A stretch of DNA of 30,908 nt, from positions 1-30,908 of IMG/VR virus record IMGVR_UViG_3300025093_001141, one strand, 5' to 3'. Each line of letters opens with the position of its first letter. The stretch's first letter is position 1. The stretch is from a virus. The notes below the pieces were generated by a model. It was not told where the DNA came from and ran no database searches. It saw only the letters and a program-made list of their open reading frames with translations. Below, in pieces: positions 7,309 to 22,464 of this stretch. The position numbers were made by a program, and so were the translations under genes.

Positions 7309-8415
7309 ATGGCTCCTAAGCAAAGGCCTTCAGCAACTGATTTTTACGTACCAGAGAATATTCTGGATAGGGCTGAAGATATCCTAAGTCCTACTACTGG
7401 CAAAATTAGTGATGATAATCTACCTACAACTGGTGATGACCCAATTCAAACTACGGGTGATGCACTGCTAGGCGGATACATCAACACAATTCTTGGAACT
7501 ATTCCTGGTGCAAACCTGATAGCACCTGCAGTCACAAACTATATTGGTGGTCAACGTACTCAAGGTAAAGGCGTCAGCTTGCTTGACCCCTTTGGTATGA
7601 CGGGTGCACGTGATGAGAGGATTTCGGAGCTAGCGCAAGAAGAAGGTATTGGTGAGAAGTTTAATTCAGATACTGGTAGGTATAGCCATTTAGGTGGACT
7701 TGTTGACCGTTACGTGCATGGTATTACTGATGATGAAGTTACTTCTAGAGTTGTAAGAGACAACCATAGCAGAATTAAAGGGAGTAAAGAATACCAATAC
7801 CTTAAAGATGAGAAAGGACGTGAATATGTAGATCAAAATTATGGACCTCTTGTATCTGGCACTAAAGTCAGTAAAGATGGAAGAACCTTAGCTCAAACTA
7901 ATAAGCTAATTACAGAGATTGAAGGTATTGAAAATGGTAAGAAGCTTCTAGATGCAGCAAGAGCTGAAGGTAAAACCTTGAGCGTAGGTGAGTTGGAAGC
8001 TATTAAAGCTAAAGCAGATCGCTTAAAACCTCTAACAGAAACTGAGCAAGCTAACCTTGAGGGTACAAAACAACAGACTCAAGCTTCAAAAGATCGTACT
8101 AGGATTGCAGAAGAAACACTGACACAGCGTGGTAAAGAGCACTCAGACAGTAACTCACTTGCATTAGCCAAACTCGAACTTGCAGACCGCACTGCGCAGT
8201 ACAACGTAGATGTTGCAAACATCAAGATCCGCAACCAAGCTGCACAGGCTGAAGCTGATCGTGAACTACGTAAAGATCTTGCGTTACTTACTCGTGGAGA
8301 CAGGAAAGACGAACGTGAGTATCGTCGTGAACGTGATGAGCGAAAAGACCGTCAGCTTATGATTCTTCAGCTCATGAACGGTCTCAAGCAGATGGGCCAA
8401 TCATTTGCTCTTTAA
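7309..8415 (+). CDS. Hypothetical virion protein with C-terminal coiled coil
   Basis: A 368-residue protein. Residues ~50-85 contain a hydrophobic Gly-rich patch (ALLGGYINTILGTIPG, IAPAVTNYIGG). The middle is polar, and residues ~240-355 are strongly predicted helical coiled coil rich in Gln, Glu, Arg and Asp (RTRIAEETLTQRGKEH, AEADRELRKDLALL, DEREYRRERDERKDRQ). It ends in a hydrophobic tail (QLMNGLKQMGQSFAL). The stop codon overlaps the stop of the convergent hydrolase gene (TTTAA at 8411-8415). The function is unknown. The coiled coil following a hydrophobic patch resembles the organisation of internal virion proteins that oligomerise, which is inference. Confidence 0.55.
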   Translation: MAPKQRPSATDFYVPENILDRAEDILSPTTGKISDDNLPTTGDDPIQTTGDALLGGYINTILGTIPGANLIAPAVTNYIGGQRTQGKGVSLLDPFGMTGARDERISELAQEEGIGEKFNSDTGRYSHLGGLVDRYVHGITDDEVTSRVVRDNHSRIKGSKEYQYLKDEKGREYVDQNYGPLVSGTKVSKDGRTLAQTNKLITEIEGIENGKKLLDAARAEGKTLSVGELEAIKAKADRLKPLTETEQANLEGTKQQTQASKDRTRIAEETLTQRGKEHSDSNSLALAKLELADRTAQYNVDVANIKIRNQAAQAEADRELRKDLALLTRGDRKDEREYRRERDERKDRQLMILQLMNGLKQMGQSFAL

Positions 8416-9407
8416 GTCTGATGGGAGTAATGAAAGAAGTTACCTTTAGGGTGAAACATAGGATCTAACATTCCTCCTTTATTACCCTTACTAGAACGGT
8501 ACTTCAGCATAGTTTGGCCTTTAAAGTCAGTACGACCGTCAAGGACTTTCAGTGCCTTTAAGATTTCAGCACGTCCTTTATCGGAAGACAAGTCAGCAGC
8601 AATATCAGGTCTTTGTTTAGACAGACCTTTGTATACGCCTTCATACTGTCCATCTTGATAGATCACATCTTTAACAGTTCCAGGCCATTTGTCTGAAGCA
8701 ACCCTATTAAGAATAGATGCTGCGACACCATACCGGTCTTTACCAGGACCTGCTTCCGAGCTAATAGCATACGCCAAGTGATTAAAGTCCTCATCTGTTA
8801 ATTTTGAAAGATCCATAGATCCAGCAAGCGGTTGACTTTGATAAGTAGTTACTGGTGAAGAATCCCCACTAGTGTTAGAACTTGAACTACTGCTACCACT
8901 ACTACTACCAGTAGGCTGATCTGTACTAAGCGTAGGACGCTCTAACGTCGGTGCATCTGGAATCATCTCAGGCGTGGGGTTTGGCTGTGAAAGCCTGGTT
9001 TCCATAGCCTTAGTGCGCTCGTCAAACTTTTTCATCCATTCATCATGAGCAGCCTCGTCTTTCTTAGATTGCTGGCCAAGTACATAAGCACCAGACAAAG
9101 TACCTAAAGCACCTACAACACCCGCAAATCGACGTGCAGGTCTTTTGATACTTTCGACTTTTTCAGCAGTCTCTGCACGAGTCTTTGCGTACTTTGTTTT
9201 AGTAAATGCATCAAGACCAGCACTAGCAACTTCACCTTCTGCTTTAGTGACAGCACGACGTTCCAGTGAACGACCTTTAATAGCTTCCTTCGAAATCTTG
9301 GTGAAGTCAGGCTTGCCCGACATGGCAGCATCAAAGATTTGATCTGATGCACGCACAACAGCTTTAGCTGAAGTCGAATAATTACCAACTCTTCTAGATG
9401 TTGCCAT
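8412..9407 (-). CDS. SleB-like cell-wall hydrolase (Hydrolase_2) with shared virion module
   Basis: 331 residues on the minus strand. Residues ~200-331 match the SleB/CwlJ Hydrolase_2 family, which cleaves peptidoglycan glycan strands: LAYAISSEAG with candidate catalytic Glu218, RYGVAASILNRV, WPGTVKDVIYQDGQYEGV, GRTDFKGQTMLKY and DPMFHPKGNFFHYSHQ. Residues 32-66 carry the shared module PDFTKISK..ERRAVTKAEGEVASAG, also present at 5433 and 5852. Residues ~93-112 form a Gly-rich hydrophobic segment (FAGVVGALGTLSGAYVLG), and 165-186 are a Ser-rich linker. This suggests a virion-carried lysin acting during entry, although an endolysin role is possible. A back-to-back promoter with the next plus-strand gene supports the ATG at 9407. 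Its stop overlaps the convergent neighbour's stop. Confidence 0.82.
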   Translation of the reverse strand: MATSRRVGNYSTSAKAVVRASDQIFDAAMSGKPDFTKISKEAIKGRSLERRAVTKAEGEVASAGLDAFTKTKYAKTRAETAEKVESIKRPARRFAGVVGALGTLSGAYVLGQQSKKDEAAHDEWMKKFDERTKAMETRLSQPNPTPEMIPDAPTLERPTLSTDQPTGSSSGSSSSSSNTSGDSSPVTTYQSQPLAGSMDLSKLTDEDFNHLAYAISSEAGPGKDRYGVAASILNRVASDKWPGTVKDVIYQDGQYEGVYKGLSKQRPDIAADLSSDKGRAEILKALKVLDGRTDFKGQTMLKYRSSKGNKGGMLDPMFHPKGNFFHYSHQT

Positions 9408-9469: not shown

Positions 9470-10447
9470 ATGGCCAAGAAGACAAAAGAGGGCGTTGCAG
9501 GCGGCATGTTCAATATGCGGGACATGTTCAATCAGTTCATGGCAATGGATCCTGGCGATACAGATGATGAGGGGCGTTCAATTAAGAACACCACGATGGC
9601 AGATATGTTCTCATCTGCTTTCCAGTCTGAGCTTTCAAAAGGAATGGCTGACTATCAGTCTGGTATTGCAAAAGACCAGATGACCCATCAGCAGAAGCTG
9701 GAACGGCAATCTGCTGGTGAAGCACGCAGGGAAGAATTTAACTATGGCATGGCCTCAATGGCCTCGCAGTTTGAACATCAAAATAACTTTGCCAACGCAC
9801 AGTACGATAGAGACATTGGAATTATTGGAGCACAAGGGCATCAGGATCGTCTGACGATTGGTGCTCAAGGTCATCAGGACCGTCTTACACGTATTGTGGA
9901 TGGTGAGCAAAACCGCCTTACTCGTGTTACTGATGGTGAGCAACGTAGATTGACTATTGGAGCACAAGGTGCTCAAGACCGTTTAAATATTGCAGCACAA
10001 GGAGACCAAGACGTTCGTAAAATTGACGCTCAAGGTTCGGTAGATAATCAGAACATTAAGACTCAGCAAACTGCTCAAGGTGCTAGAGAGCTAGCAAATA
10101 TTGGAGCTCAAGGTACTGCAGACCAAGCAAACATCTTGGCACAACAACGAGAGCAATCAAAACGTGAGCTGCAGAATATTCAAGCGCAGGGTGAGGCTGA
10201 TAAAGCAAACATCATTGCTCAACAGACCTCACAAGGTGCACGTGAGCAAGGGAACATTAAAGCTCAAGGGACGGAAGATCGCGCTACGATTAATACTCAA
10301 CAAGAAGCACAAGGTAACCGAGAGGTTAAAGTTATTGGAGCACAAGGCGACGATAACCGTAAGACGATGGAGAAAGAAGACGAGCTCACCGCGAAGAAAT
10401 CAAACCGGCAATCTGCTCGTGCCCGCTCTCTTGCACGTGCCTTCTAA
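9470..10447 (+). CDS. 11/15-residue repeat coiled-coil protein
   Basis: 325 residues. After a ~118-residue helical N-terminal region (FNMRDMFNQFMAMDPG, then Gln/Met-rich), residues 119-299 divide exactly into repeats: seven 11-residue units of type IGAQGHQDRLT, then four pairs of one 15-residue unit (type ILAQQREQSKRELQN) and one 11-residue unit. Each unit begins with Ile or another beta-branched residue (two begin with Arg), and the G/Q/D core is conserved. Eleven and fifteen residues correspond to three and four helical turns, so a long right-handed or nearly straight oligomeric coiled coil is expected. The C terminus is basic (KKSNRQSARARSLARAF). Function unknown; a virion needle, spacer or fibre shaft are options. 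The stop overlaps the next ATG as TAATG. Confidence 0.7.
   Translation: MAKKTKEGVAGGMFNMRDMFNQFMAMDPGDTDDEGRSIKNTTMADMFSSAFQSELSKGMADYQSGIAKDQMTHQQKLERQSAGEARREEFNYGMASMASQFEHQNNFANAQYDRDIGIIGAQGHQDRLTIGAQGHQDRLTRIVDGEQNRLTRVTDGEQRRLTIGAQGAQDRLNIAAQGDQDVRKIDAQGSVDNQNIKTQQTAQGARELANIGAQGTADQANILAQQREQSKRELQNIQAQGEADKANIIAQQTSQGAREQGNIKAQGTEDRATINTQQEAQGNREVKVIGAQGDDNRKTMEKEDELTAKKSNRQSARARSLARAF
9824..10366 (+). repeat. Protein-coding tandem repeat, 11- and 15-codon units
   Basis: 543 bp encoding 181 residues, exactly eleven 11-codon and four 15-codon units. The first seven units are 11-mers; the rest alternate 15 and 11. DNA identity between units is moderate (a recurring GGAGCACAAGG/GGTGCTCAAGG core), so the periodicity is mainly at protein level. 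Confidence 0.85.
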
Positions 10448-11464: not shown

Positions 11465-13003
11465 ATGGCAATACCTAGCGCAGCATTAGCGTATAAACGC
11501 TCGGCTTTAATGACGGCTACGAAAGTAACCACCAAACCACCGAGCGAAGAAGTACTTAGAGCAAGAGATAACTTTCAAGACTTTTGTGTATTTATGGGAA
11601 AGGCTCCAGCAAAGCATATGTTGGAGTGGCACAGCGAACTATGTACAGGAGAAGATAGCGAATGTCTATTAGGAATCGGAGGACCAAACACTGCAATCCT
11701 GGCACCGCGAGGATCTGCGAAAAGTACTGTCCTTGGTTTGTTTGCAGCTTGGATGATAGGCAGACACACTGCTGCTGGAAAAATGCTGAGGATTCTGTAC
11801 ATCGCGTACATGGTGGACATTAGTCGTGCAAAGTCAGCAACAATCAAAGGAATTCTCACGAGTAACAAATATCGCGAAGTATTTCCAATGGTGCGTTTAT
11901 CGAAGATCAAGCGCTCCGACGAATACTGGAGTATCGACTACGACTTCGCTGGAATTGATACTGCAGGCGAGGAAGCTTTCACTATTGCGTGTGGTGGTCT
12001 CAAAGGTGCAATCACCTCGAAGCGTTCCCAACTTGTTCTTATTGATGACCCTATCAAGTCAGCTGCCTCCATTAACAATCCGGACATACGTAGAGAGATG
12101 GAACAAACGTGGTCTAACGTTATCGCTCCAACTATGTTCCAAGGGGCCAGGGCAATTTGCCTCGGGACCCGCTTTCACTTTGACGATGTACACGCCACGT
12201 TATTTATTCCAAAAAATAATTGGAAGCAGATTATCCAAAAAGCTGTCATAACAGACGCTGACGGTAAGCAACGTTCGTACTGGCCAGAGTTCTGGTCAAT
12301 GAAATACCTGAACGAACGTAAGATGGAGGACCGTGTTGCATTTGCATATCAGTACCTCAATACCGCCGTTAAATCTACAGACGTTGGTATCTCACCAGAG
12401 TTGATTGTTAAAGCAGAAGTACCAGAAGACTACGACTGCCTTGGTGTAGGAATTGACCTTAGTGCAGGTCTGAAAGAGAAAAACGACTGGACTGTATTCA
12501 CACTTGGTGGAATTAAGGATGGCAAGATATATCTGATTGACCAGCGTCGCTCACGAACAATGGGTAACCTTGAAAAGATGGACATCTTATGTGAGATGTT
12601 GGCTGACTGGAACATCTTGCTTGAAAATGATGAAGGTCAGTTCTTCCCAACAATGTCACCATGCATCATCTGGCCTGAAGCTGTTGCATACCAAAACTCA
12701 TTTGAAGGTGACTTCAAACGAATAATGCTAGAGAACCGTGCTCTGTATAACCTCACAGTCTCACCAGTCAAAGGCTTTAAAGGAGACAAGCTTGCCAGAC
12801 TTCGCGGTGTACTAGGACTTTACGAGCACAAGAAAGTTATCTGGAACAAGTGGCGCAAGTGGGACATGCTCGAAGAAGAGCTTCTTAACTTTGGTCACTC
12901 AGCTCACGACGATACTGTTGACAGTATGGTGTTAACAATGGGCGGACTGTTGAGAAGAGGAAAATTAGAAATTGACTACAATAGTAACAGCTTTGACCTT
13001 TAA
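11465..13003 (+). CDS. terL: Terminase large subunit
   Basis: 512 residues, normal length for a phage DNA-packaging motor. The ATPase half shows a Walker A motif APRGSAKST (residues 80-88), a Walker B VLIDDP (191-196) and a coupling motif LGTRFH (233-238). The C-terminal RNase-H-like nuclease half shows the expected acidic residues at GIDLSAG (Asp331) and HDDTVD (Asp482/Asp483), which coordinate metal for headful or site-specific cutting. The protein docks on the portal and drives DNA into the prohead. The two genes before it could supply the small subunit. A TACAAT box for the following gene lies inside its last codons. No anomalies in length or key residues are seen. Confidence 0.95.
   Translation: MAIPSAALAYKRSALMTATKVTTKPPSEEVLRARDNFQDFCVFMGKAPAKHMLEWHSELCTGEDSECLLGIGGPNTAILAPRGSAKSTVLGLFAAWMIGRHTAAGKMLRILYIAYMVDISRAKSATIKGILTSNKYREVFPMVRLSKIKRSDEYWSIDYDFAGIDTAGEEAFTIACGGLKGAITSKRSQLVLIDDPIKSAASINNPDIRREMEQTWSNVIAPTMFQGARAICLGTRFHFDDVHATLFIPKNNWKQIIQKAVITDADGKQRSYWPEFWSMKYLNERKMEDRVAFAYQYLNTAVKSTDVGISPELIVKAEVPEDYDCLGVGIDLSAGLKEKNDWTVFTLGGIKDGKIYLIDQRRSRTMGNLEKMDILCEMLADWNILLENDEGQFFPTMSPCIIWPEAVAYQNSFEGDFKRIMLENRALYNLTVSPVKGFKGDKLARLRGVLGLYEHKKVIWNKWRKWDMLEEELLNFGHSAHDDTVDSMVLTMGGLLRRGKLEIDYNSNSFDL
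12977..12982 (+). promoter_or_regulatory. Putative -10 box TACAAT within the end of terL
   Basis: TACAAT followed by AG, 29 nt before the ATG at 13012 and inside the last codons of the terminase gene. It matches the recurrent box exactly. Being coding sequence, it is less certain than the intergenic copies. Confidence 0.4.
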
Positions 13004-13011
13004 TCTTTCAG

Positions 13012-13758
13012 ATGTCTGATATTAATTTGCCTGAAGATAGAAAATCACGGATGGCTGGTGATGTATTCTCTAAAGACTATCAACCGCCTTCTGAAGAGTA
13101 TTTAAAAAAGAAGCGTGAAAAACGTACTCAAGCCACGCTTAGTGCAATGAAAGAAGGTTATCGTGATAACGTTGAGAAAAACCGTGGAAAAGAATGGTAC
13201 GACAAAGCCCTTAATCTGGGCTTAGACCACGCTACTAAAGGCGGTGCATATACAGGTGGCGAAGTGAGAGCTGAGATGCGCCACGGACGTGGTGATAAAA
13301 CTGTTGATGAGATGCGTGACTACTATCAAGGTCTTATTGATGATGGCGTCAAGTTCAACGGCAATGCTCGTGACTTCTTAGCAGATAAGCATGGTCTAAT
13401 CTTCCCTGAATCTGGCGGAGGTAAAGGTGGAGGCGAAGGCGAAGGCGGAGGCGGAGGCGGCGACGATGGCGGAGGAAAAGATACTACTCCTACTCCAACA
13501 CCTACCCCTGATGGTCCTGACCAAAGCATTGACTATCGGCCTCCTCGTCTTGGTTATCCAGGCTTAGGCAATACTCAAGTTCAAAATGTAAACCAGGATA
13601 ATGACATTATTTCTAATGTGACTGGTGATAACAATACTGTTACTAATACTCAAGACAACAGTATTAGGCAGTATGGCGGTAGCTTCTCACCTGCTGCACG
13701 TAGTAAGTACTTGCGTGACAAGTACGTTGCTAACGTTTCACGATTCACGGGGGCTTGA
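13012..13758 (+). CDS. Virion protein with 37-residue QDNSIRQYGG motif, copy 1
   Basis: 248 residues. The N-terminal ~130 residues are charged and helical (EYLKKKREKRTQATLS, KGGAYTGGEVRAEMRHGRG). A Gly/Glu/Asp low-complexity linker followed by a Thr-Pro repeat spans ~135-170, and residues 187-223 hold the conserved block NTQ.QNVNQDNDI...GDNNTV....QDNSIRQYGG. That block has a regular N/D/V-I pattern that could form short beta-solenoid turns. The next gene carries a near-identical block. I associate such QDNSIRQYGG blocks with marine phage structural proteins, but their function is not known to me. It starts nine bases after the terminase stop. Confidence 0.6.
   Translation: MSDINLPEDRKSRMAGDVFSKDYQPPSEEYLKKKREKRTQATLSAMKEGYRDNVEKNRGKEWYDKALNLGLDHATKGGAYTGGEVRAEMRHGRGDKTVDEMRDYYQGLIDDGVKFNGNARDFLADKHGLIFPESGGGKGGGEGEGGGGGGDDGGGKDTTPTPTPTPDGPDQSIDYRPPRLGYPGLGNTQVQNVNQDNDIISNVTGDNNTVTNTQDNSIRQYGGSFSPAARSKYLRDKYVANVSRFTGA
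13570..13680 (+). repeat. Duplicated 111-bp coding block, copy 1
   Basis: Encodes a 37-residue block that matches the copy at 14236-14346 in 30 of 37 residues with no gap. DNA identity is lower because of synonymous changes, so the duplication is old or the motif is under protein-level selection. Confidence 0.85.
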
Positions 13759-13761
13759 TGA

Positions 13762-14778
13762 ATGTCTACTAGAGCAGATGCTAGAAAACAAGACCGCATT
13801 CGTCGAAGAAATCAACAGAGAAGTGATTTTAAAAACCAAAACATTGAGTCAGCAAGTGATTTTGATTTCAATCAGCATGGAATTAATGCGGTCTCTGGGC
13901 GAGAAGTAAGGTTCTTGCGTGAACGACACAAAGGTAACGGAGGCAGCCTGCGTGATACTTATGCTGCATTAACAAAGCAGAAAGAATCTGGAGCTACGTT
14001 TGGGAAACGCGCTCAAAGTCAATACGATCGTATGGGTAAGCGTATTGCAAAGATTGATGCACGTAAGGCTGCTAAAGCAAAAGCGAAAGCTGCTCAAGGT
14101 AGTACAGGACAGGCGACTAATCCTATTGACGACACACAGACTGGCAACAATGATAATGTTCCAGGTAATAAAGATATGCATCACGCAACAGTAGAGCCGG
14201 CTGATTATCATCAACGGAACACTACTGAAATTGAGAATACTCAAGAGCAAAACGTAAATCAAGACAACGATATTGAGACCAATGTCAATGGTGACAACAA
14301 TACTGTAATTACTGAGCAAGATAACTCTATCCGTCAATATGGTGGAGACAATCGTAGCTTTGTCTACAACAGTAATGGTGGTGGTGCTGGCTCTGATATG
14401 CCTGCTTCAATGGCAACTCTTGCTGGATTCTTTGCTCCTGATGATAGCCCTGCTGCACAAGCAAAGTTCAATGACATGTACGTCACAATGAACCGCGACA
14501 ATCAGAAGCGGTATGCAGGTGATGCAATGAAGACTTTTGCTAAGTACGGCAATCTTGATGCTCGTAGTTACACTGATGAGTCTATGGAAAATGCTCTTGG
14601 ACGTAGCACTCAGTACTCCTTTGACCGTGCCGACCGTCAAACTGGACACGTCTTCGGTGATATCTGGAATGATAACTACATTACTGAACGTTGGAAGATG
14701 CCATCACCTCCTAAAGAGATTAAATCTGAGGCAAAAGAAATTGCTGAAGATGCTAAGGATGATATCGAAGATATCTGA
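13762..14778 (+). CDS. Virion protein with 37-residue QDNSIRQYGG motif, copy 2
   Basis: 338 residues starting three bases after the previous stop. The N-terminal ~110 residues are strongly basic and helical (ARKQDRIRRRNQQRSD, KRIAKIDARKAAKAKAKA), suggesting nucleic-acid or scaffold contact. Residues 159-195 carry the block shared with the upstream protein (NVNQDNDIETNVNGDNNTV, then QDNSIRQYGG). The C-terminal half is a separate helical and aromatic domain (AGFFAPDDSPAAQAKFND, NDNYITERWKMPSPPKE), ending in an acidic tail. No enzyme motif is seen. The pair probably arose by duplication or exchange of the block, with unrelated flanks. The location between terminase and portal suggests a head- or connector-associated role. 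Confidence 0.6.
   Translation: MSTRADARKQDRIRRRNQQRSDFKNQNIESASDFDFNQHGINAVSGREVRFLRERHKGNGGSLRDTYAALTKQKESGATFGKRAQSQYDRMGKRIAKIDARKAAKAKAKAAQGSTGQATNPIDDTQTGNNDNVPGNKDMHHATVEPADYHQRNTTEIENTQEQNVNQDNDIETNVNGDNNTVITEQDNSIRQYGGDNRSFVYNSNGGGAGSDMPASMATLAGFFAPDDSPAAQAKFNDMYVTMNRDNQKRYAGDAMKTFAKYGNLDARSYTDESMENALGRSTQYSFDRADRQTGHVFGDIWNDNYITERWKMPSPPKEIKSEAKEIAEDAKDDIEDI
14236..14346 (+). repeat. Duplicated 111-bp coding block, copy 2
   Basis: Second copy of the 37-codon block, ungapped against 13570-13680, with 30 of 37 identical residues. Confidence 0.85.
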
Positions 14779-14818: not shown

Positions 14819-17077
14819 ATGGACAATAGTGCAGTAAAAAGTCAATTTAATCAAATACTTACTGCTGCTAAAGAGCGCCGAGGTGACCTTTCTGTAGACA
14901 CAATGATTGTGTCTTCACACCTTGCACAGATGAAGACTTTTATGCTGCGTCGTGGCATTGAGTTCTTTGCTGAGCAAGACAGCTTCGGTTCACGTAAAGA
15001 TTTTATTCAGCGCGTGGTTGAAGACAACATGCTGGAGATGAAGCTCGACAGCATTGTTGACTACTTCCTTTGTGACGGTCAAGGTCTGTTCTACTTTAGA
15101 CCTACAGGTGACAACTATCAGCTGCTTTACTTCCCTAAAGATAGCTACCGTGCTTACCGTGACCAAACTGGTGAACTCGAATCAGTCGTACTGATTTACC
15201 ACTTCAACGTACGTCGTACTAATGCACTTGATGCATATCCTACGCAAGATGGACGTGGTGGTAAAAAGAAGTGGATTCAGCTTAAGGTCTACAAGGACCG
15301 CATTGAGCAAACCATTAGTGACGAGAAGATTGAGTTTGAGAATGAGATGGGAGCAGACATCTTCAAGATGCCTGGTCAAACCGAAACTTTAATCAACAGT
15401 CTCGGATACATCCCAGCAGTCGAAGTGTTCAATCACATGGACTGTACTGGTGAGGCCACTGGTAACGGTGAGTTTGATTGGCTCGCTCACCAAATTTTGT
15501 ATCACGATGAGCTGGTGCGTAACGTCCGCAAGAACATGAAGTTCTTCGGTAACCCAACTCTCGTATCTAGTAGGCCTAAGCACGACATTCTTGATAGTGA
15601 TGCAGAGAACACCTTCCGACCAACAATCAGCTCACAGGCTGGTTTTACCCCCTTGGCTGGTCTCGGCGGGAGTACTCGTGTTAGTCAGCCCTTTGGTAGT
15701 TCTAGCGTTGATGGACAGATTAAGGTCCCCCGCGTCATCGCAAACCTAGAACCTACTGACCGTGTTCAGTACATGACACCTGACGCTGTGTCTGGTGACC
15801 AGAACATGTACGTCAAACAATACCGTTCTGAAATTCGTCTCGCCCTTGGTGGTGTTGATGATATTGATATCGGTACCGCACAGACAGCGTATGAGATTAA
15901 AACTCTCTACGGTCGAGTTGCTGCCACAGCAGAGAAGAAAGCACGTGCCATGTTTACATATGGTCTGTGTAAGTTGTTCTCAATGATGATCTTTACGGAA
16001 GAAGATATGTTCCGTAGGTCATTTGCAGCAGCTCTTGGTATGGAAGAACCAGAGCAACCGTTGCCTGAAGACTTTGGTCAAGACCTTGATGCTTATGAAA
16101 AAGCATCTGTTAAGTACACCAAAGACTATCAGAAGTTTGTAGAAAAGAGAGACGAAACTCTCCGTGTTACACTTGATGGAGGGGATATTCCCCCCGGAGT
16201 AACTGGACTTATTCCTGACGGCAACACAAAAGTAAGTTGGCGTTGGATGGGTGAAGTATTTGAAGAAAGTACTGACGACATTCTCAATAACAGTATTGTC
16301 GTTCGCAACCTTCAAGAACTTGGAGTTGATTCTATTGAAGCTCTCAAGTATCTCTTCCCCGGCAAAACGGATGAAGAGAGGGCAGCAATGCTTTCTGGAT
16401 ATCCATTTAGAATGGTCCAACAAACACAACAAAGTATTAACAGCTTCATTGGATTACTAGGCAATCTTTATCAACTGCCTCATCCACAGATGCCTGACAA
16501 ACCATTGGCATCTGACCCGAACCTTGACCTAACAGGGTTCCTCTATCGATCTTTAGAATTCTTACGTAAGGAGTTAAGTTACAGTGGAAGGTACAAACCA
16601 GACAGCAGCAGTAGCAGCCCCGACCAGCTCAGCACCGCAGACCGGTTACGCGCAAGTCGCGGCACCCCAATACGCGACGAGCCAGTCACCAGTCTCCCAG
16701 GCATCGATGGCCCAACCAGTGGTGCCACAAATGCCGGCTTACCAGGCACCGGCCCAGGCAGCGCAGGCTTCGGCTCCGGCGGGCAATCCATGGCAGCAGG
16801 CGTTTCAGGCTCTCAGCGCCTCCCTGAATACAAGCAACCAATCCCAGGCCCAGGTTTCACCCTCGGCTTACCAAACAACCCCAACACCTCAGGCAGCTAC
16901 ACAGCCGAGCTGGGCTTCAATGGCGGCCCCGGCGGCAGCCCCGACTTACAGTCCCCAAGTTTCAACCCAGGGTTACTCGGAATCGGAGGTGACGCAGCTG
17001 GTGCAGCAGGCGGCTCAGCAAGGAGCGGCTCAGGCTCAGGACGGGTATCTAAGCGGAATCAGCGACGCAAGTCTTGA
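14819..17077 (+). CDS. Portal protein with long disordered, dual-coded C-terminal tail
   Basis: 752 residues. Residues 1-588 look like a phage portal: N-terminal helical part, a mixed wing region (CDGQGLFYFRPTGDNYQLLYFPKDSYRAY), the EFDWLAHQILYHDELVRNVRKNM helix region (split in two helices), and a later core with IGTAQTAYEIKTLYGRVAATAEKKA and RWMGEVFEESTDDILNNS. The dodecameric portal forms the head vertex for packaging and tail attachment. Residues 589-752 are Ser/Gly/Pro rich, probably disordered, and end in a basic stretch. This tail is encoded in the same DNA as the N terminus of the next gene, read in another frame. A stop near residue 590 would already give a normal-length portal, so the tail is likely a later addition. 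Confidence 0.85.
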   Translation: MDNSAVKSQFNQILTAAKERRGDLSVDTMIVSSHLAQMKTFMLRRGIEFFAEQDSFGSRKDFIQRVVEDNMLEMKLDSIVDYFLCDGQGLFYFRPTGDNYQLLYFPKDSYRAYRDQTGELESVVLIYHFNVRRTNALDAYPTQDGRGGKKKWIQLKVYKDRIEQTISDEKIEFENEMGADIFKMPGQTETLINSLGYIPAVEVFNHMDCTGEATGNGEFDWLAHQILYHDELVRNVRKNMKFFGNPTLVSSRPKHDILDSDAENTFRPTISSQAGFTPLAGLGGSTRVSQPFGSSSVDGQIKVPRVIANLEPTDRVQYMTPDAVSGDQNMYVKQYRSEIRLALGGVDDIDIGTAQTAYEIKTLYGRVAATAEKKARAMFTYGLCKLFSMMIFTEEDMFRRSFAAALGMEEPEQPLPEDFGQDLDAYEKASVKYTKDYQKFVEKRDETLRVTLDGGDIPPGVTGLIPDGNTKVSWRWMGEVFEESTDDILNNSIVVRNLQELGVDSIEALKYLFPGKTDEERAAMLSGYPFRMVQQTQQSINSFIGLLGNLYQLPHPQMPDKPLASDPNLDLTGFLYRSLEFLRKELSYSGRYKPDSSSSSPDQLSTADRLRASRGTPIRDEPVTSLPGIDGPTSGATNAGLPGTGPGSAGFGSGGQSMAAGVSGSQRLPEYKQPIPGPGFTLGLPNNPNTSGSYTAELGFNGGPGGSPDLQSPSFNPGLLGIGGDAAGAAGGSARSGSGSGRVSKRNQRRKS
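16567..16573 (+). promoter_or_regulatory. Ribosome-binding site TAAGGAG deciding the internal GTG start
   Basis: TAAGGAG lies 10 nt before the GTG at 16584, inside the portal coding sequence. It is one of the better Shine-Dalgarno matches in the window and supports independent initiation of the overlapping scaffold-like gene. Confidence 0.65.
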
Positions 17078-17573
17078 AGTTCTTGAGCACTTCGGTGCTG
17101 AAGCTCCTGCTCTCCTCAACCAGTATGCCTGTGCAGTTGAAGATGCTCTGATTGAGCAGGTTCAGCGTGGTAACAGCATGATTCACACTCTCGAAGCAGC
17201 AGCTGAAGAGCGTGGTGCAATGAACATTATGCTGACCAACCCCGACGTGCTTGCTGATTACGTCAACGATTTCTTTGGTCCTAACGGTCCTTATCCGACT
17301 GAAACCCCCGACGAAACCGCTGCACGTGAGCAGTATGAAGCCCGTGCTCAGTTCGAAGCTGAAATCGAAGCTCAAGAGCAAGGTCGTGTTCCCCAACAGT
17401 TCCAACGCCCTGTGCAAGAAATGCCGACCCCCGGTCGCGCTGCTAACCAGGCTCAGGACTTCTGGGGCAGCTTTAGCGAGATGATGGATAGCTCCCCCGA
17501 GAATGCTTGGAAGTACCTCTCCCAGGCCCCTCAGGGTGCCCTCTCCGCCAAGATGCTGGTCCAGGACCTCTGA
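16584..17573 (+). CDS. Scaffold-like head assembly protein overlapping the portal gene
   Basis: 329 residues from a GTG with a TAAGGAG site 10 nt upstream. The first ~130 residues are Ala/Gln/Pro/Ser rich and disordered (TSSAPQTGYAQVAAPQY, QAPAQAAQASAPAG). The rest is acidic and helical (LEVLEHFGAEAPALLNQY, EQYEARAQFEAEIEAQEQG) and ends in a short hydrophobic tail. Placement between portal and capsid genes, composition and length fit an internal scaffolding protein, which guides coat assembly and then leaves the head; this is inference. The first 494 nt overlap the portal in a +1-shifted frame. In that stretch T-ending codons are scarce and GCA/GCG/GCC dominate for Ala, while GCT is common downstream, as expected under two-frame constraint. 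Confidence 0.72.
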   Translation: MEGTNQTAAVAAPTSSAPQTGYAQVAAPQYATSQSPVSQASMAQPVVPQMPAYQAPAQAAQASAPAGNPWQQAFQALSASLNTSNQSQAQVSPSAYQTTPTPQAATQPSWASMAAPAAAPTYSPQVSTQGYSESEVTQLVQQAAQQGAAQAQDGYLSGISDASLEVLEHFGAEAPALLNQYACAVEDALIEQVQRGNSMIHTLEAAAEERGAMNIMLTNPDVLADYVNDFFGPNGPYPTETPDETAAREQYEARAQFEAEIEAQEQGRVPQQFQRPVQEMPTPGRAANQAQDFWGSFSEMMDSSPENAWKYLSQAPQGALSAKMLVQDL

Positions 17574-18499: not shown

Positions 18500-19441
18500 A
18501 TGTCACAGCCAAGAGCAACAGGAGATTCAGTACGAGCATATTTGAGAGACATCGGCAGAATTCCTCTTCTTGAGCACGACGAAGAGATTTTGCTTGGTCG
18601 TCAGGTACAACGACTGATGGAAATTAAAGGTATTCAAGAAGAGTTAGAGACCACTGATAAACAGCAACTGGCTAATAAATTAGGACTTACAATTAAAGAA
18701 TTAAGGAAGGAGATTCGTGCTGGAGAAAAGGCTAAGGACAAAATGGTCACTGCCAACCTCAGGCTCGTTGTTTCAGTCGCAAAGAAATATACCAAGCGAA
18801 ACATGGAACTCTTGGACATCATCCAAGAAGGTACCATCGGCCTCGTCCGTGGCGTGGAGAAGTTCGATCCTGGCCGTGGTTATAAGTTCAGTACTTATGC
18901 ATATTGGTGGATCCGACAAGGCATTACTAGGGCGATTGCGGAAAAAAGCAGAGCCATCCGCCTACCAATCCACGTTACAGAGAACCTCAACAAACTTAAG
19001 AAAGCCCAGCGTGAACTGAGCCAAATGAACGGCTATATGCCGAATGTCTTTCAACTGTCAGAGTACTTGGGTCTTACTGTAGATGAAATCAAAGACTTGA
19101 TGTGTAAGGCACGTCAGCCGACATCCCTTGAAATCAAGATTGGCGAGAACCGTGACACTGCTCTAATCGACTTGCTTGAAGATGAGACACAGTTGCCTGA
19201 CACGTTGCTTGACCAGCAGTTCATCAAAGAAGACATCCGTGAGTTAATTAAAGACTTGCCTGAAATGCAAGCTGCAGTCATCTCTATGCGTTACGGCATC
19301 GGTGATGAGATGCTTGAACCGATGTCTATGACTGCTATTGGGCAAGTCCTGAATATGTCACGTGACCGTGTGCGTACACTTGAGCACAAAGCATTGAAAG
19401 CACTTCGTGGTGAATCTGAAAAAATCAACGAGTATCTTTAA
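18500..19441 (+). CDS. RpoD-like RNA polymerase sigma factor (group 2, cyanobacterial type)
   Basis: 313 residues, close to cyanobacterial non-essential sigma70 factors, which have no large region 1.1. Region 1.2 spans ~8-40 (DSVRAYLRDIGRIPLLEHDEE). Region 2 spans ~80-150 with NLRLVVSVAKKY, LLDIIQEGTIGLVRGVEKFD and the -10-recognising YAYWWIRQGITRAI, where the Gln and Thr that contact the -10 element in E. coli sigma70 are kept. Region 3 spans ~153-235. Region 4 spans ~242-305 with SMTAIGQVLNMSRDRVRTLEHKA split over the HTH. It should bind host core polymerase and redirect it. T4-like cyanophages usually carry a short gp55-type sigma instead, so a full-length one among virion genes is unusual. 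Its promoter is the best sigma70 match here. Confidence 0.93.
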   Translation: MSQPRATGDSVRAYLRDIGRIPLLEHDEEILLGRQVQRLMEIKGIQEELETTDKQQLANKLGLTIKELRKEIRAGEKAKDKMVTANLRLVVSVAKKYTKRNMELLDIIQEGTIGLVRGVEKFDPGRGYKFSTYAYWWIRQGITRAIAEKSRAIRLPIHVTENLNKLKKAQRELSQMNGYMPNVFQLSEYLGLTVDEIKDLMCKARQPTSLEIKIGENRDTALIDLLEDETQLPDTLLDQQFIKEDIRELIKDLPEMQAAVISMRYGIGDEMLEPMSMTAIGQVLNMSRDRVRTLEHKALKALRGESEKINEYL

Positions 19442-21315: not shown

Positions 21316-22464
21316 ATGTGGATTGATAATGATTTTCCGAAGCTCCTCGGCGCTGAACTCTATAGGCCCCATCCAGCTTACATCATTGAGATGGCAGTTG
21401 AGCCAGTAGTGGTCCACGATTTTAGTAAGCAGCCCGGCCAGACCGTGCAGCTTGATCGTTACCGCTTCTGGGGTAAGCCTGGCACCAAGGAGTCCCGTGA
21501 GCGGACTGCTGATCAAACACTTGGATCTGCCTCCGCACGCAACATCGTGAAGGACAAAGTGCTGGTTACTCTCCGTGAGTACACCGGTCCTGCTGATTCT
21601 CGCGATTCCACGCAGCCTTCTACCTTCAAGGTGGCTCGTGAAACCCTGATTACTGCTCAGCGTTTGCTGCTGGACACCGGAAACCTGAACGTCTTCCACC
21701 AGTCCATCGGTTCGCTGACCCTGCTTGATGACTATCGCCGCTGGCGCGACCGGGTGTTCGCTAACGAACTCCTGAAAGCCGAAGCTTGTGGCAAGGCCGA
21801 CCAAGAGCAAGGTGGTTACTACCTGCCCGGCGGCAAAGAGAAAGGCGCTACTGGCGGCACCCTCGGTGTCACCTACGAAGCTGGTGAATCCGCCAAGTTC
21901 GATGTCAAGACCGATCTGCTGGAAGTCGTTAAGGACATGCGTAAGCGCAACGTCCCGACCTTCGCAGACGGCTACTACCGCTGCATCGTGGATCCGACCG
22001 CGATGATGCATCTCCGCCAGAACAGCGACTTCCGTGAGATCGCCCGTTACCCCGGTACCGGCATGATCAACCCTATGGCCCCTGAAATGCATCCTGATGC
22101 AAACTTCTTCAAGGGTATGGGTCCTGCTTACGGACAAGCTGGCTTTGTGGCTGGTCAACCCGTTATGCCGACTGGCTTCCTCTTCGAGGGTGTCCGTTGG
22201 TTCGAGTCCACCAACCTGCCTGAGACCGAGTACAACTTGGTGATTACTGATGAGAACGCTGCTGCTGCCGATTACGGCGCTGCTCAGCTGATCTTCTTCG
22301 GTCCCCAAGCTGTCGGCGTGGGTATTGGTGGTAACAACGCTCAGATTCTGCTGAACAACAACGATGACTTCTCTCGTTTCATCATCATGATCTGGAGCTT
22401 GTTCGCCGGTTTTGAAACCCTGAATAAGGATTTCATTACGGTTGGTTACTCTTTCGTTTATTGA
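21316..22464 (+). CDS. Major capsid protein (HK97-fold, tentatively P22/N4-gp56-like)
   Basis: 382 residues. The N-terminal region (VHDFSKQPGQTVQLDRYRFWG), the helix set KVARETLITAQRLLLDTGN and RRWRDRVFANELLKAEACG, and the late segment YYRCIVDPTAMMHLRQNSDF with DFREIARYPGTGM are typical of phage coat proteins of the P22-coat/N4-gp56 group; I am sure of the capsid role by position, size and expression signs, less sure of the subfamily. Codons are shifted to C/G-ending forms (CTG, ACC, AAC, GTC) unlike the neighbours, as expected for the most abundant virion protein. A clear Shine-Dalgarno lies 10 nt upstream. It is followed at 17 nt by the decoration-like gene, and the pair ends at a strong terminator. 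An antisense open frame across it is a shadow. Confidence 0.85.
   Translation: MWIDNDFPKLLGAELYRPHPAYIIEMAVEPVVVHDFSKQPGQTVQLDRYRFWGKPGTKESRERTADQTLGSASARNIVKDKVLVTLREYTGPADSRDSTQPSTFKVARETLITAQRLLLDTGNLNVFHQSIGSLTLLDDYRRWRDRVFANELLKAEACGKADQEQGGYYLPGGKEKGATGGTLGVTYEAGESAKFDVKTDLLEVVKDMRKRNVPTFADGYYRCIVDPTAMMHLRQNSDFREIARYPGTGMINPMAPEMHPDANFFKGMGPAYGQAGFVAGQPVMPTGFLFEGVRWFESTNLPETEYNLVITDENAAAADYGAAQLIFFGPQAVGVGIGGNNAQILLNNNDDFSRFIIMIWSLFAGFETLNKDFITVGYSFVY

Follow-up and report, generated by a model that had tools for sequence, protein, structure and literature searches.

In phage lambda the protease and scaffold genes C and Nu3 are nested, with the scaffold made from an internal start, and in phiX174 (A/B and D/E) and the Rz/Rz1 pair two genes on the same strand are read in alternative frames with selection acting in both. 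A survey of 12,609 virus genomes put the median +1 overlap at 14 nt (PMC8903798). In P22 a complex of portal and scaffold starts procapsid assembly, with electrostatic contacts involved (PMC12005531; PMC13386823). The window studied here, the whole of a 30,908-nt stretch of viral DNA from IMG/VR (record IMGVR_UViG_3300025093_001141), carries a portal gene and a scaffold-like gene that overlap out of frame by 494 nt. The only isolate of its group within the phage collection is Synechococcus phage S-EIVl (KJ410740), which shares the scaffold with the window and has a portal 47% identical and a major capsid protein (MCP) 68% identical to the window's. S-EIVl has the same overlap, 554 nt long and with an ATG/AAGGAG start, yet its GenBank record does not show this and places a scaffold of 133 aa after the portal stop, whereas the conserved frame has 325 aa. 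From the comparisons described below we conclude that the 494 nt are almost certainly genuine and ancient dual-coding DNA, and it is very likely that this holds jointly with the identity of the two products as portal and scaffold.

The portal gene (14819..17077, + strand, 752 aa) extends about 164 codons beyond its folded core, with residues 1-588 forming the conserved core and residues 589-752 the dual-coded tail. The scaffold-like gene (16584..17573, + strand, 329 aa) starts inside it, directly after the portal's last conserved helix (KE-L/M/I-SY), and is read in the +1 frame relative to the portal. The overlap itself (16584..17077, + strand) codes for the portal tail and for the N-terminal half of the scaffold. 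The scaffold start codon is GTG (16584..16586, + strand), and its Shine-Dalgarno sequence TAAGGAG (16567..16573, + strand) lies 10 nt before the GTG and within the portal codons for the conserved K-E-L-S-Y; in most clades these codons double as the Shine-Dalgarno sequence. The coordinates, the frames, the start codon and the spacing given in the original prediction are all exact. Upstream of the portal lies the gene for the terminase large subunit (11465..13003, + strand) and downstream of the scaffold that for the MCP (21316..22464, + strand, matching phrog_1357), which gives the gene order terminase, portal, (scaffold), MCP.

The portal identity that had been proposed was confirmed by the fold. 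An AlphaFold2 model of modest confidence (mean pLDDT 62.6) gave a portal fold in Foldseek with an E-value of 7e-12, and over residues ~4-530 it aligned with the portals of phiCD508, 80alpha/SaPI1, SPP1, lambda, T7 and P22 with Z scores of 15-20 (best 19.9). The protein also matches phrog_20475, annotated "head and packaging", with E=3.5e-188. The second gene is most probably a scaffold, a reading that we base on its position and architecture. It sits between the portal and the MCP both in the window and in a provirus of Kovacikia, where it directly adjoins an MCP 46% identical to the window's. Its AlphaFold2 model (mean pLDDT 63) has nine helices and a disordered N-terminus, and the C-terminal half is all-helical and acidic, so that the protein has the elongated, mostly helical and partly disordered build of a scaffold. 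The "scaffold-like" label of the original prediction therefore fits in position and architecture, but no homologous scaffold was recognised in PHROGs, Pfam or the PDB and a fold search with the model returned nothing at E<=10. Both products had also been described as disordered in the overlap, in agreement with the pLDDT values, which are mostly below 50 at portal residues 622-752 and below 50 at scaffold residues 1-67 and 83-131.

Several other features of the window are of separate interest. A full-length, host-like sigma-70 factor (regions 1.2-4) is encoded among the head genes at 18500-19441, between the scaffold and the MCP. All 42 loci with sufficient flanking sequence from the window's group and the L144 group carry it at that site, and no such gene was seen close to the scaffold in the clades of S-EIVl, L308, L304 and Kovacikia. 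Compared with S-EIVl, the window's clade has extra genes, this factor included, between the scaffold and the MCP. Two adjacent proteins (13012-13758 and 13762-14778) carry a near-identical motif, NTQxQNVNQDNDIxxNVxGDNNTVxxxQDNSIRQYGG, suggestive of a local duplication. Three proteins (5433-5822, 5852-6577 and 8412-9407 on the - strand) have in common a related N-terminal segment of ~60-90 aa (RxxxTKAEGEVAxxG...), suggesting a common docking module; one of them has a C-terminal domain matching many tail-fibre families and another a cell wall hydrolase domain. The protein at 9470-10447 contains many degenerate repeats of the IGAQGxQDRLT type, which make up a coiled-coil-like region.

Relatives were drawn from scans of IMG/VR (hundreds), from binned genomes (11 more), and from a phage and a plasmid collection, and their portal identity to the window falls from 83% to about 32-35% in the most distant ones. 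Homologous portal, scaffold and MCP genes follow in the same order across the S-EIV1-like cyanophage group. The overlap is present in clades at 73-85%, ~70%, ~50-55%, ~48% and ~35% portal identity, the plasmid collection contributing a provirus on the Kovacikia minuta megaplasmid pA. Counting repeat fetches from the same contig, both frames are open in all but two of 443 judgeable loci, and among the 319 distinct overlap sequences with both frames open (446-638 nt long) there are no stops in the portal frame. The refuting condition set in the original prediction, relatives with such stops inside the overlap, did not come about in these sequences. The two exceptions look like broken or misassembled copies. 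One (L242) has an in-frame stop within the portal core; in the other (L520) both frames are disrupted and the scaffold frame enters a portal-type C-terminal sequence (...GKRGKS*) inside the overlap, probably through an indel or a chimeric assembly. The window's clade starts the scaffold with GTG and most others with ATG, at the same place after KE(L/M/I)SY, and AGGA, GGAG or GAGG lies upstream of the start codon in nearly all loci of each clade but L304, where this signal is weak. Judged by this distribution, the overlap is older than the divergence of all the sampled clades. Two of these loci have features of their own. The Kovacikia block (L470; NZ_CP083583.1, about 706-724 kb) is a provirus-like set of terminase, portal, scaffold and MCP genes on a 1.2-Mb Kovacikia minuta plasmid and is without annotation in the plasmid collection. 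In another relative (L471:5001-5900) the start of the portal gene is duplicated around an insert of ~850 nt that seems to encode an HNH-type endonuclease.

The GC content of the overlap is raised, as had been noted, to 0.628 from the 0.449 of the portal core; the remaining scaffold gene has 0.550 and the whole window 0.462. T-ending scaffold codons are indeed avoided in the overlap, where they make up 14.6% of the codons vs 32.9% after it in the window, and 14.5% vs 32.4% in 44 representatives. The shift in alanine codons that had been described exists as well, but it is mainly a matter of GCG, which in the scaffold frame occurs 10 times in the overlap and 0 times after it in the window and 363 vs 21 times in the 44 representatives; the claimed avoidance of GCT does not stand, as GCT still provides 10 of the 38 alanine codons of the scaffold frame within the overlap. 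T-ending scaffold codons yield portal stops solely when followed by AA, AG or GA. A G at the third position of a scaffold codon opens a portal codon for Gly, Ala, Val, Asp or Glu, so the bias appears to reflect the portal amino acids besides the avoidance of stops.

Changes per codon were counted in 22 independent pairs, both in the overlap and in the scaffold C-terminus. Scaffold position 3 (portal position 1) changed 0.106 times in the former vs 0.258 times in the latter, and position 2 (portal position 3) changed 0.083 vs 0.037 times; position 1 (portal position 2), where changes are nonsynonymous in both frames, was the slowest in the overlap at 0.042. Overlap-aware dN/dS was calculated pairwise with no correction for transition bias or multiple hits. 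In the window's clade it came to 0.34 (0.21-0.47) for the portal frame and 0.24 (0.15-0.32) for the scaffold frame; fake-frame controls in non-overlapping parts of the same genes, which guard against gross error, gave 1.27 and 0.76. In four clades taken separately the portal values were 0.37, 0.58, 0.43 and 0.35, with upper confidence limits of at most 0.72, and the scaffold values in the overlap were 0.29, 0.28, 0.26 and 0.24. Comparing dN/dS per frame across relatives was the check proposed at the outset, and it finds both frames below 1, i.e. under purifying selection. Scaffold-silent change alone would be expected to create 42, 60, 76 and 37 portal stops in the four clades; 0 were observed. 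Mean conservation within the overlap is similar for the two products (0.47 and 0.50), and each has its own conserved elements. In the scaffold these are residues 68-82 (NPWQQAFQALSASL; 16785..16829, + strand), the main predicted helix of the dual-coded half, which is conserved across clades. In the portal tail they are two motifs, E-Y/W/F-x-x-P-I/L-P-x-P-G at residues 670-679 (16826..16855, + strand), with P676 and G679 invariant in 58 portals, and D-L-x-x-P-S-x-N-P-G-L at residues 709-719 (16943..16975, + strand), with D709 conserved in 98% of them. Together E670, P676, G679 and D709 are 97-100% conserved in these portals, vs 40-88% for the overlapping scaffold residues.

Three explanations would do away with dual coding. 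One is that the thing conserved is an RNA or DNA element, such as a regulatory structure or a packaging site. RNA structure could also give high GC and reduced third-position change, but we reject this reading as grossly improbable, given that the overlap forms less stable structures than dinucleotide-shuffled versions of itself (z +1.9), is without a match in Rfam and takes substitutions that track the codon positions of both frames. It is also very hard to believe that only the portal frame is functional here and that the scaffold is a short downstream protein of 133 aa. The GenBank annotation of S-EIVl, in which the gene begins after the portal stop, speaks for this, but so short a protein would leave unexplained the low dN/dS of the scaffold frame in the overlap (0.24-0.29), a start position and Shine-Dalgarno sequence conserved in nearly all clades, and the conserved NPW-EAF-L helix within the overlap. 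Additionally, similarity to the S-EIVl protein itself reaches upstream of its annotated start.

The third explanation is that the scaffold frame alone is functional and that the portal simply reads through a frame left open by chance in Ala/Gln/Pro-rich, GC-rich sequence. Low-complexity, GC-rich DNA does favour alternative open frames. However, when we calculated the chance of meeting no portal stop with the scaffold amino acids fixed and codons drawn at their usual frequencies, it was 5.6e-4 for the window with a median of 1e-4 per sequence even at that composition, and the frame is open in 44 of 44 representatives. A portal dN/dS of 0.34-0.58 with the upper limits given above in four clades, and portal-frame residues that are invariant down to ~35% identity, argue in the same direction, and with the fake-frame controls added we rejected a chance open frame as next to impossible. 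The dual coding with a real portal tail that the original prediction proposed is thus strongly supported, by the open frames in 319 sequences and by selection on both.

How the two proteins may be made from this DNA can be pictured in simple terms. Ribosomes on the portal would traverse the region from end to end while others would initiate at the internal Shine-Dalgarno sequence and start, and one mRNA would then give the portal and, independently, the scaffold. The scaffold gene brings a start of its own, in most clades together with a Shine-Dalgarno sequence, and scaffolds are as a rule required in far greater numbers than the 12 portal subunits. With independent internal initiation, more scaffold than portal could come from one mRNA, and the matched expression suggested in the original prediction is not implied.

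Portals of this fold have their C-terminal end on the head-interior side, which would let the Gly/Ser/Pro-rich portal tail reach into the procapsid. The role that we prefer for it, tentatively, is that of docking the scaffold: the short motifs of the tail and its basic end could bind to the scaffold, which is acidic, and perhaps to DNA at a later stage, and the binding to scaffold could help to start head assembly at the portal vertex. Since the P22 scaffold binds the portal wing and not the C-terminal tail (PMC12005531), the analogy with tail docking is loose.

The main rival to scaffold docking is contact with packaged DNA, in which twelve flexible polybasic tails would touch the incoming genome during packaging, retention or ejection; we consider this rather unlikely, if clearly worth keeping in mind. 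The portal ends in a polybasic stretch (GRVSKRNQRRKS; 17039..17074, + strand), and a net charge of at least +4 over the last 20 residues is kept in 309 of 320 distinct sequences despite a varying stop position. A C-terminal tail should also face the lumen, going by the fold and by portals in general. Against DNA handling, the strongest conservation of the tail is in the E..P.PxPG and D..NPG motifs and not in the basic end, and some lineages are without that end (L144/L146/L231, L470 and L471). Being missing there, it cannot be strictly essential, and the internal motifs are better candidates for an essential contact. The small lineage of L144, L146 and L228-L231 lost the polybasic end (its tail ends GPGGGVSVPASS) and kept the rest of the tail and the motifs, which makes it a natural experiment on the function of that end.

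Returning to scaffold docking, its most far-reaching form is that the portal tail and the scaffold N-terminus are two halves of one binding interface, obligately co-inherited, that starts head assembly. We hold this to be doubtful, but if true it would mean a co-inherited interface that a cyanophage family of worldwide distribution has kept for as long as it has existed.

A further alternative concerns the origin of the overlap. The original prediction had the portal tail arise by overprinting, which was not upheld: the overlap is in every intact relative and codon usage leans weakly the opposite way. In ~79% of the representatives the codon usage found elsewhere in the two genes is matched better by the portal tail than by the scaffold N-terminus, a weak sign that the latter is the more atypical frame. 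It may be, then, that the scaffold N-terminus is the newer frame and that the scaffold start shifted upstream into a pre-existing portal tail, a proposal that we see as evenly poised between right and wrong. Besides codon usage, it is favoured by the ease of the step: with the portal tail given, an open scaffold frame comes readily (p 0.06-0.4), but with the scaffold given, an open portal frame does not (p ~1e-4). However, the codon-usage result is built on weak correlations (0.13 vs -0.01), whose order is inverted in the deepest clade (L470), and long co-evolution of both frames blurs the signal. A search of IMG/VR, the binned genomes and the phage and plasmid collections for an outgroup lacking the overlap, which reached down to ~35% identity, yielded none.

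These results have some practical consequences. They correct the annotation of the S-EIV1 scaffold to 325 aa, not 133 aa, and the overlap can serve as a gene-finding signature for a widespread and poorly known group of cyanobacterial viruses. The hundreds of natural variants provide material for studying the co-evolution of two proteins that are unable to mutate independently, and also let one ask whether shared coding links interacting partners.

Looking at the described systems again, there is no shared coding of portal and scaffold in P22. In the literature searched, with its partial coverage, we found no description of a ~500-nt overlap of two head-assembly genes. Lambda C/Nu3 is alike in that two head-assembly proteins, one of them a scaffold, come from one stretch of DNA. 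However, Nu3 is in the same frame as C and shares its protein sequence, whereas the pair in the window is read in different frames and gives unrelated proteins. The overlaps of phiX174 and Rz/Rz1 belong to small ssDNA genomes or to lysis genes, in contrast to the ~500-nt overlap of two morphogenesis genes seen here in a dsDNA phage of ~80 kb, and large dsDNA phages seldom have long out-of-frame overlaps. Overlapping genes themselves are already known, but a family-wide overlap of ~500 nt is unusual when set against the overlaps that have been surveyed.
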